From Muribaculaceae bacterium (lineage in GTDB: Bacteria > Bacteroidota > Bacteroidia > Bacteroidales > Muribaculaceae): a stretch of DNA of 64,000 bases. Positions within the stretch are counted from its first letter, which is position 1. The number at the start of each line of letters is the position of its first letter. A program made the position numbers and the translations under genes. The notes under the pieces are model-generated. The model was not told the DNA's origin. It searched no databases and was given only the letters and a program-made list of their open reading frames with translations. Below are positions 431 through 5,121 of the stretch, piece after piece. The stretch covers positions 1 through 64,000 of the forward strand of contig JAFQZK010000039.1 in assembly GCA_017405965.1 (NCBI GenBank), in the 5' to 3' direction.

Positions 431-518
431 GGAAGTATGGGTGAGTGGTCGAAACCAGCACACTGCTAACGTGCCGAGCCCCTCAAGGGTTCCGAAGGTT
501 CAAATCCTTCTGCTTCCG
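431..518 (+). tRNA. tRNA-Ser (anticodon GCT)
   Basis: The acceptor stem GGAAGTA (431-437) pairs with TGCTTCC (511-517) with one G-T wobble. The anticodon loop reads CTGCTAA, giving anticodon GCT for the AGC/AGU codons. A long variable arm (class II) follows, and the T loop is TTCAAAT. The CCA end is not encoded, since only CAA follows the discriminator base. It is first in a cluster of three tRNA genes a few bases apart, so co-transcription is likely. Confidence 0.95.
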
Positions 519-524
519 CAAAAT

Positions 525-608
525 GGGAAAGCGGCGAAGTTGGAGAGTCGTGGCAGACTGTAAATCTGTTGCCCCAAGGCTGAGTAGGTTCGAGTCCTAC
601 CTTTCCCA
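525..608 (+). tRNA. tRNA-Tyr (anticodon GTA)
   Basis: The acceptor stem GGGAAAG (525-531) pairs with CTTTCCC (601-607). The anticodon loop CTGTAAA gives GTA, and a class II variable arm is present, as expected for bacterial tRNA-Tyr. The T arm is TAGGTTCGAGTCCTA. CCA is not encoded. It lies six bases after tRNA-Ser and twelve bases before the split tRNA-Lys. Confidence 0.95.
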
Positions 609-620
609 CTAGCAAATGAT

Positions 621-768
621 GGCTTCGTAGCTCAGCAGGTCAGAGCACCACACTTTTAATGCGGGGGTCCTGGACTGCCTGATGGCTTCCTTTGTCGCGA
701 CTCGGCAAAGTTCATGCAAACATGACTTTGCGCTCGCAGCTCCATCGGTTCAAGTCCCAGCGGAGTCA
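621..768 (+). tRNA. tRNA-Lys (TTT) interrupted in the T arm by a 74-nt insert
   Basis: Bases 621-673 give acceptor GGCTTCG, D stem GCTC/GAGC, anticodon loop CTTTTAA (TTT at 655-657), the variable loop and the first four bases of the T stem (CTGG). The rest resumes at about 748 with the fifth T-stem base, T loop TTCAAGT, CCCAG, and acceptor CGGAGTC (761-767), which pairs with GGCTTCG using two G-T wobbles. Removing 674-747 restores a normal 74-nt cloverleaf with a CTGGG/CCCAG T stem. The anticodon stem has one A-C mismatch (650/662). It may be a functional tRNA with an intervening sequence, a stable odd RNA, or a decaying gene at a recombination site. Other tRNA-Lys copies outside the window cannot be judged. 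Confidence 0.7.
674..747 (+). ncRNA. structured insert inside tRNA-Lys
   Basis: The 74-nt insert folds well on paper. GATGG (681-685) pairs with CCATC (742-746), an inner GCGA pairs with TCGC, and a terminal hairpin is formed by GCAAAGT/ACTTTGC extended by CATG/CATG around a CAAA loop (714-740). It is far too short for a known group I or II intron, and no bulge-helix-bulge motif is evident. Insert boundaries are uncertain by one base because a G is repeated at the junction. Confidence 0.5.
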
Positions 769-787
769 CAAATACAATCGCAAGAAG

Positions 788-1372
788 ATGTTCAGGCAAT
801 TATACATAAGATGGTTGGTTCGCCGGGGAAAGGCCATAGATATATGGTCGCACAGCGACTATCCCGCACAAGTGTTATCTAACCTGTGCAGTAATCCGTT
901 CACCTTTGACGGGGTGCAGTGCGGCAGCATGGAGGGCTTTCTCCAGTCGCTGAAGCAGCAGGACCGCAACAAGCAGCGGCAGATATGCGCCATGAAGGGC
1001 CGCAATGCCAAGAGGGCATCCAGCACCCATTGGCAGACCGACCAGATCGTCTGGTGGAAGGGCATCGCCATAGACAGGCAATCTGATGAGTTCCTGCAAC
1101 TGCTCCGCCACGCCTATCAAGCGATGTTTGACCAGAGCGAGCGGTTCCGTGCGGCGCTGATGGCGACACGGGGCATGAGGCTCTACCACTCCCGTGGCAA
1201 GAGCAACCCGTTCAAGACCATCCTGACCGAACAAGAGTTCTGCCAGATACTCACCGACCTGCGCGACAAGTATGACCTGCGCGACAAGGGCCTAGGACAC
1301 CGCAGGCTCATCTTCGTCGAAGTGGAATACGAACCTTCGGCACAAGACGGAGAGGACATTAGTATCTGCTGA
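788..1372 (+). CDS. NADAR/YbiA-like protein
   Basis: A 194-aa cytoplasmic protein starting at the ATG 19 bases after the tRNA-Lys 3' end; the frame is open further upstream but only through the tRNA insert. The N-terminal half has a NADAR/YbiA-type pattern: LSN at 30-32, then FDG near 40, SMEGF near 47-51 and QSLK. It continues with MKGRNAK, WWKG, an AL-ATRG segment and a closing TILTEQEF-LTDLRD. NADAR proteins cleave the N-glycosidic bond of ADP-ribose or ADP-ribosylated substrates, and some act as antitoxins. The family match is by eye and moderate. The tRNA-side position and the nearby phosphoesterase and WYL-type regulator suggest an accessory or defence-type island. No substrate can be inferred. 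Confidence 0.55.
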   Translation: MFRQLYIRWLVRRGKAIDIWSHSDYPAQVLSNLCSNPFTFDGVQCGSMEGFLQSLKQQDRNKQRQICAMKGRNAKRASSTHWQTDQIVWWKGIAIDRQSDEFLQLLRHAYQAMFDQSERFRAALMATRGMRLYHSRGKSNPFKTILTEQEFCQILTDLRDKYDLRDKGLGHRRLIFVEVEYEPSAQDGEDISIC

Positions 1373-3781: not shown

Positions 3782-4233
3782 CTTTATCGTTTACTTGAGC
3801 AGTATCTCGGATAGGACTACACGCTACATCACTTCGTGAGCACCATGTTGGCACCGATTCCTAAAAGTCGTTGAGCACATTGCTGGCATTGCATAATCTG
3901 GGGTGCAGATATGACGATAGCCTTCAAACCTACTCGTGGCCTGAACGTTTTTGCCCTTCAATATGTCAACTCTCAGTGTCAGCATGATAGCCTTATCTTA
4001 AAATTGGCCGCAAAATTACACCTTTTCACCGAAACCTCCAAATATCTGACAGATTATTTTGATTCAAGGTTATATTATATACTACGTATATACTTTTTTC
4101 AAACCGATGATCATGTGATTATTTTTTGCGCCGCAAAGATATAGCAATAGACCGCATTCTTTTTGCGTCCATGATGAAATTCACTCAATTCTCAGTAAAA
4201 ATTGCTCGTTCGCAAAAGACCGTGCATTCCCCA
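3782..4233. other. gene-poor stretch with possible coding remnant
   Basis: No intact gene. On the minus strand, 3829-3958 is an open frame of about 42 codons without a good start; it encodes a protein-like tail containing MQCQQCAQRLLGIGANMVL. It may be a remnant of a lost gene. The remainder is AT-rich. A second short minus-strand frame just beyond this stretch (4302-4367) encodes ISPREGILKVLSEYIEHEV and also looks like the end of a lost gene. Neither family was recognised. Confidence 0.3.
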
Positions 4234-4258
4234 TCGATGGGGGCGCCCGGCGCCGGTT
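4234..4258. repeat. 25-bp direct repeat, left copy
   Basis: A GC-rich 25-mer (TCGATGGGGGCGCCC then GG-C/T-GCCGGTT) that recurs at 5018-5042 with one mismatch. It flanks the AT-rich membrane-protein gene. The left copy also forms the palindrome CCCCATCGATGGGG (4229-4242). Confidence 0.7.
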
Positions 4259-4492
4259 CCGATCGGTGGGCGATCGCTTGTCCACCTGCGGAATGGGAGG
4301 CTTAAACCTCGTGCTCGATGTACTCGCTCAGCACCTTGAGGATGCCTTCTCTCGGCGAGATGCTGAGCTAAAGGATGGGGGCTCAACGGCAGAAGACACA
4401 AAAAATATCAAAAAAATAATTGTTTCTTGTAGTTTTTTGACGAGTCCTTGCGTCTAAAGAGTGAAATCATAAACCAATAAAAACTAGACATT

Positions 4493-4981: not shown

Positions 4982-5003
4982 ATAGTATCTGCAAGAAACA
5001 TAG

Positions 5004-5034
5004 CCGGGCGCTCCCTCTCGATGGGGGCGCCCGG
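5004..5034 (+). terminator. GC-rich hairpin after membrane-protein gene
   Basis: A 12-bp stem (CCGGGCGCTCCC with GGGGGCGCCCGG, one T-G pair) and a 7-nt loop, 22 bases after the stop codon. There is no T-run after it, so it may act as a 3' stability element. Confidence 0.5.
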
Positions 5035-5042
5035 TGCCGGTT
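5018..5042. repeat. 25-bp direct repeat, right copy
   Basis: Partner of the repeat at 4234-4258 (24 of 25 identical). Here it forms the right arm of the hairpin at 5004-5034. Confidence 0.7.
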
Positions 5043-5121
5043 ACGTGAGGTAAGGACTGCTCCCCAACTTGGCAAAATTACTTTGCTGTCATAGGGTGGT
5101 AGAAGAAAAAGGTTTTGTATT

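Follow-up and report, generated by a model that had tools for sequence, protein, structure and literature searches.

A 74-nt palindromic repeat, very probably a small mobile element, recurs in tRNA T arms of rumen Bacteroidales

Main finding

In the window, i.e. the whole stretch of 64,000 nucleotides analysed from a Muribaculaceae bacterium, a tRNA-Lys(UUU) gene is interrupted in its T arm by 74 nucleotides which very probably represent a copy of a palindromic mobile element that forms a hairpin and is non-autonomous, comparable within Bacteroidales to REP and Rickettsia palindromic elements (RPE). The insertion occurred at an exact place, with exact empty sites in relatives, and the same T-arm position is occupied recurrently in six tRNA kinds and in both orientations. 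T arms are landing sites of large integrative elements; here, the T arm is a repeated target of 74-nt palindromes.

The interrupted tRNA-Lys(UUU) gene and its insert

The preliminary description of a tRNA-Lys(UUU) gene carrying a 74-nt T-arm insert at 621-768 was borne out, since the Rfam tRNA model matched this region from end to end with 36 bits (gathering score 29). The Rfam search of the region returned no family besides tRNA and no group I intron match. ARAGORN misses the gene in its unaltered form and calls tRNA-Lys(ttt) once the flanks are joined without the insert. The gene is the third of a small array ordered Ser, Tyr, Lys, which is followed by a Phage_30_3 (T4 gp30.3-like) gene (Table 1). 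The window is the start of a 67.8-kb contig of a 3.6-Mb genome, in which a second array, of 18 tRNAs, lies on another contig; no copy was found in that array by the element model. Eighteen tRNAs also precede gp30.3 in the relative L101. Most named relatives are MAGs of uncultured Bacteroidales, and there are many rumen (RUG) assemblies among them. Elsewhere in the window, two similar GC-rich palindromic repeats (GATGGGGGCGCCCGG..), at 4230-4262 and 5003-5043, were seen by eye to flank a small membrane-protein ORF.

Table 1. Positions of the interrupted tRNA gene, the element and neighbouring genes in the window
Feature	Position	Strand	Remarks
tRNA-Ser(GCU), same array as tRNA-Lys	431..519	+	ARAGORN
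tRNA-Tyr(GUA), same array as tRNA-Lys	525..609	+	ARAGORN
tRNA-Lys(UUU) 5' part	621..674	+	acceptor strand through T-stem 5' strand CTGGA (670-674)
74-nt palindromic element, very probably mobile, long form (CTGCCTGATGG...CCATCGG)	675..748	+	family copies, empty sites in relatives
Element outer stem, 5' arm CTGATGG	679..685	+	pairs with 742-748
Element inner hairpin GGCAAAGTTCATGCAAACATGACTTTGCGC	704..733	+	two-sided changes among copies
Element outer stem, 3' arm CCATCGG	742..748	+	
tRNA-Lys 3' part	749..768	+	T loop TTCAAGT, T-stem 3' strand CCCAG, acceptor 3' strand
Phage_30_3 (T4 gp30.3-like) gene	791..1372	+	also 3' of tRNA-Lys in relatives

The insert had initially been placed at 674-747. 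These borders do restore CTGGG/CCCAG as claimed, but other copies favour 675-748, a choice that leaves A as T-stem base 53. Since this base can be assigned to either side, the edge may be shifted by one position. The inserts of the window and of two relatives' loci, L095 and L096, are each 74 nt long and follow T-stem base 53. As for the long hairpin attributed to the insert, it folds better than most shuffles, though not dramatically so: z was -2.2 for the RNA (4 of 200 shuffles equally good) and -2.8 for the DNA (2 of 200), and the fold of the whole 148-nt RNA was not unusual (z -1.1). Covariation in the insert stem, proposed as a check in the preliminary description, was found in an alignment of copies, where the covariation score and the percentage paired were reached by none of 500 shuffles. 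Among copies, 10 of the 20 pairs of the inner hairpin were changed on both sides; two of five hairpin measures, pairs with two-sided change (65/500) and pair types (136/500), lay within the shuffle range. The outer stem was less constant than the inner hairpin (87.8% of cells paired). As in REP elements, the palindromic repeat keeps its hairpin through two-sided changes.

Empty and occupied sites

Fifty-four loci of relatives were found, 27 of which were read together with one viral locus. Among 14 tRNA-Lys loci read near gp30.3, the insert was present in three (window, L095 and L096) and absent from 11. A second such site is a terminator-like hairpin that follows gp30.3: L091 (= L267) and L089 contain the element there, and L090, L095 and L097 lack it. 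The Lys inserts are no closer to one another (5-6/74) than to the terminator copy of L091 (3-5/74), and a gp30.3 tree, 2 of whose 11 inner branches are well supported, keeps the three Lys carriers apart. A single origin of the Lys insertions was considered and a single clade of carriers was rejected (AU p 0.0166), recombination being still a possible cause of this result. Such exact empty and occupied sites allow a hunt for the enzyme that moves elements of this kind.

Distribution of the repeat family

Two covariance models were used, R1 for the 63-nt core (matches at E<=0.001) and R2 for the long form (strong matches at E<=1e-8). R1 matched in 35 of 61 genomes and 4 of 25 genera. R2 gave 54 strong matches in 33 of 101 genomes of the genus, and the flanks of all 54 were read. 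Order-wide, R2 matched in 3 of 392 genomes besides the window's own, and no tRNA was seen by eye in the flanks of these three matches. In these searches, the element was found almost exclusively in one genus of rumen Bacteroidales. The genome of the window itself has one strong copy, the tRNA-Lys insert, along with weaker core hairpins.

Searches of mobile DNA yielded a single element match among phages (L291:591-666), in MT836274.1, an unannotated human faecal 'Bacteriophage sp.' contig. This copy is a short form according to the covariance model (55.5 bits), and its joined flanks give no tRNA. In a plasmid search with tRNA plus element as query, only the tRNA part was aligned among the matches listed (20 of 23 records).

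Junctions were counted on 53 full-length matches, i.e. element-model matches in the loci at hand, a mixed set distinct from the 54 genus-wide matches and left after removal of a partial match (L282:1541). The element starts with TTG or CTG in 40 of the 53, and the sequence 3' of it begins with TT in 40 of the 53, these junction bases being included in R2 and not in R1.

Copies in tRNA T arms

Twelve of the 54 strong genus-wide matches sit in tRNA T arms, a share which is inflated because the window copy served as seed for both R1 and R2. Forward copies interrupt tRNA-Lys (three copies in three genomes), Arg(UCU) (likewise three in three genomes), Asn, an Asn/Gln fusion, Ile(GAU) and Met(CAU); reverse copies interrupt Met and Ser(UGA). 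With a tRNA content of 0.15%, the chance of 12 out of 54 in tRNA genes is about 3e-23, a value calculated on copies that are not independent and with a model, R2, that was partly built from T arms. Forward copies are located at G53|T54 and reverse copies on the opposite strand of the same loop; the T loop is nearly palindromic, so that both strands offer TTC or TTG. Counted by tRNA kind, array and orientation, the T-arm copies would correspond to at least seven independent events.

None of the 12 occupied tRNA genes was called by ARAGORN, which is a warning for annotation, and the Rfam tRNA model still detects three Lys copies. After joining of the flanks, 9 of the 12 were called, including that of L095, with its anticodon shifted by one base. 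When the flanks of the 53 full-length matches were joined likewise, these 9 yielded a tRNA spanning the join and the 44 others yielded none. Some host genes are visibly altered: the Asn/Gln fusion consists of a 5' half of tRNA-Asn and a 3' half of tRNA-Gln that meet at the element, and pairing in the Ile T stem is poor (by eye). The Arg copies of genomes G033 and G108 have a 9-nt deletion in common. G108 harbors five T-arm copies within 1.6 kb. T-arm copies adjoin other tRNA genes in all cases except the Lys copies of L095 and L096; no further tRNA was called in these two loci (about 8 kb each), which may be remnants of arrays. Among the open-access papers listed, no title or opening of an abstract describes repeated entry of palindromic elements into tRNA T arms.

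Other peculiarities were seen in such arrays. In G033, a further tRNA of the same array contains a weaker core-hairpin relative (27.5 bits), in reverse orientation and apparently in its variable arm (L163:9795-9831, plus strand). By eye, a hairpin that is related but not the same seems to interrupt an array tRNA-Phe of G108 close to its anticodon arm (L265:8922-8958, minus strand). The T loop of the array tRNA-Asn at L101:1160-1232 and L164:124-198 is unusual (GAGATATCGTAA) and lacks the TTC motif even when uninterrupted.

Copies in protein genes and elsewhere

Copies of about 75 nt were found in frame, on the opposite strand, in genes for a GNAT acetyltransferase, an FKBP and a zinc-ribbon/PNPOx (Zn_ribbon_2/PNPOx) protein, and a shorter one in a YdcZ-type transporter (DMT_YdcZ). 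As with RPE, in-frame insertion thus concerns unrelated protein genes. The peptide encoded by the element is much alike in GNAT and FKBP (..LMEQREQSQ..SAESRQK..) and still recognisable in the zinc-ribbon/PNPOx protein (..QLMEQREESE..SPESREK..). Two tandem in-frame copies form part of the N terminus of an FKBP-like protein (L266:2344-2880, plus strand), and in at least one other FKBP-like sequence, L145, the element introduces a stop (by eye). Copies also occur between genes and in the terminator-like hairpin. At the start of a CDP-alcohol phosphatidyltransferase ORF (L270:319-888, plus strand), a copy is open in a frame other than the usual one.

State of the interrupted tRNA-Lys

Judging from the presence of at least two intact tRNA-Lys(UUU) genes, from changes at fixed sites and from the Asn/Gln fusion, the interrupted tRNA-Lys is most likely a disrupted, tolerated extra gene copy and would give no working tRNA. 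The preliminary description had taken an intact second gene, together with the lack of a transcript from this locus, as the mark of a pseudogene; the first half of this holds, with two other intact tRNA-Lys(UUU) genes in the genome. In the window copy, the 53-61 pair is lost unless the other insert edge is taken. The Lys gene of L095 is changed in the D loop, D stem, variable loop and T54, and that of L096 at A38, all at sites constant in the 11 intact copies. Some variation exists among these intact copies as well; in 8 of the 11, one position of the anticodon stem is already unpaired, so that this tRNA-Lys was imperfect from the outset. All three Lys carriers still fold well once joined. Two G-U pairs of the acceptor stem, formerly put forward against decay, are real but give no such argument: each occurs in intact relatives, and they are therefore uninformative on selection after insertion. 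Behind the insert, the T loop begins with TTC in the window and L096 and with CTC in L095, versus TCC in 10 of the 11 intact copies, a difference that plain insertion does not explain.

An intervening sequence, an expansion segment and a tRNA broken by recombination had all been envisaged. The last comes nearest, since the insert is a copy of a dispersed family present in several tRNAs, protein genes and intergenic sites.

Target site and search for a mover

On the forward strand of the element, TT(C/G) comes next in most copies, which amounts to a start just 3' of (C/G)AA on the other strand. Copies recur where the stem of the T arm meets its loop, and this loop, GGTTCGAATCC, presents the target on both strands. 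The element would probably be moved in trans by a supplied enzyme, and a HUH/Y1-type transposase acting on single-stranded hairpins is our guess for this role. The paired cleavage sites of IS200/IS605 elements have a parallel here in the (C/G)AA target of the other strand and the CAA found at the end of the element itself. An interrupted tRNA may be tolerated because the tRNA array is spare. Matches to Y1_Tnp genes were found in 24 of the 25 genus genomes searched.

A RAYT was tried as the mover and rejected. The element lies beside only 1 of the 40 Y1_Tnp loci tested (31 from the genus and 9 from the order), a 96%-identical paralog in the same genome is without adjacent element, and among 37 genus genomes, G025, G035 and G036 carry elements without relatives of that RAYT (E<=1e-15). 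The 41 right-end matches included no recognisable parent transposon or extended, autonomous copy sharing that right end. The ends of the element can be shifted by up to about 4 bases, and a TT duplication of 2 bp may exist, being compatible with several sites; a clean target duplication was discarded, the left and right triplets being different in tRNA-Lys (CTG vs TTC). An integron attC site, the boxes of which are RYYYAAC/GTTRRRY, was discarded as well: its G|TT junction is similar, but no such boxes were seen by eye.

It is conceivable, though less likely than not, that very small mobile elements truly prefer the tRNA T-arm hairpin, which some enzyme would recognise on either strand as single-stranded hairpin DNA. 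Spare arrays would then be a safe landing place, and protein genes would get an in-frame tag of about 25 residues.

Alternative explanations

One ancestral T-arm insertion might have spread by recombination between similar T arms, without repeated targeting. T arms do resemble one another, the Asn/Gln fusion testifies to arrays having recombined or undergone deletion and the Arg copies of G033 and G108 share their deletion, yet this scenario is unlikely: copies are found in both orientations, two genomes have the element in a non-tRNA hairpin, and the Lys inserts are no closer mutually than to the copy of L091. The separation of the three Lys carriers in the gp30.3 tree also speaks against it, though recombination could cause that. 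It is very improbable that the insert is removed from the RNA, as a new small bacterial tRNA intron, and that the gene makes a working tRNA-Lys. The exact insert position, the joined flanks called as tRNA in 9 of 12 cases and the persistence of the interrupted Lys in three genomes are in line with such removal; reverse-orientation copies in the Met and Ser T arms and the Asn/Gln fusion argue against it, as do the intergenic and protein-gene copies, the interrupted Lys genes changed at sites fixed in intact copies, the mispaired Ile T stem (by eye) and the intact tRNA-Lys genes of the genome. To our knowledge, no bacterial enzyme performs this type of removal.

Only slight credence can be given to the proposal that the insert stays as a T-arm expansion and that the longer tRNA is used, e.g. 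as a decoy for tRNA-cleaving defence enzymes. Stacking of its outer stem on the T stem would be feasible, the neighbouring gene is phage-like, and tRNA arrays are considered a putative antidefence system in PMC12803027, all of which counts in favour of this proposal. However, element orientation is not constant and some host tRNAs are fused or mispaired. Moreover, the T and D loops of an expanded tRNA could presumably hardly meet normally. An assembly artefact can practically be dismissed: the named relatives are nearly all metagenome assemblies, but the Lys insertion is common to three genomes and the family is present in 33 of 101. Insertion of a mobile palindromic element remains the preferred reading.

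Comparison with known systems

Group I introns and archaeal tRNA introns interrupt tRNA at an exact place; the present element differs from both in being tied neither to tRNA nor to one orientation. It resembles MITEs by its small size, its non-autonomous nature and, in the long form, its short imperfect terminal inverted repeats (CTGATGG/CCATCGG), but it has no clear target-site duplication and no parent IS was found among the 41 right-end matches.

With REP and REPIN sequences and their RAYT (TnpA-REP), the family has in common that it consists of small dispersed hairpin repeats. PMC3733652 describes REPs inside genes and GTAG or CGTC tags at the hairpin base; no such tag was seen by eye beside the element hairpin, which is flanked by CTCGG and CTCGC in A2. 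The family works like REP and RPE, yet linkage to a RAYT gene, a defining test of RAYT-REP membership, was found at only 1 of 40 loci.

REP elements in genes and in-frame RPE are already known, RPE being short palindromic repeats of which many lie in frame in protein genes (PMC10969869 and PMC3733652). Going by passages of these sources on RPE, the present element differs from RPE in its length (74-75 nt against about 150 bp), in its phylum and in its recurrent insertion into tRNA T arms, which lies outside their RPE descriptions; it resembles RPE in its in-frame copies and in the conserved peptide encoded on one of its strands.
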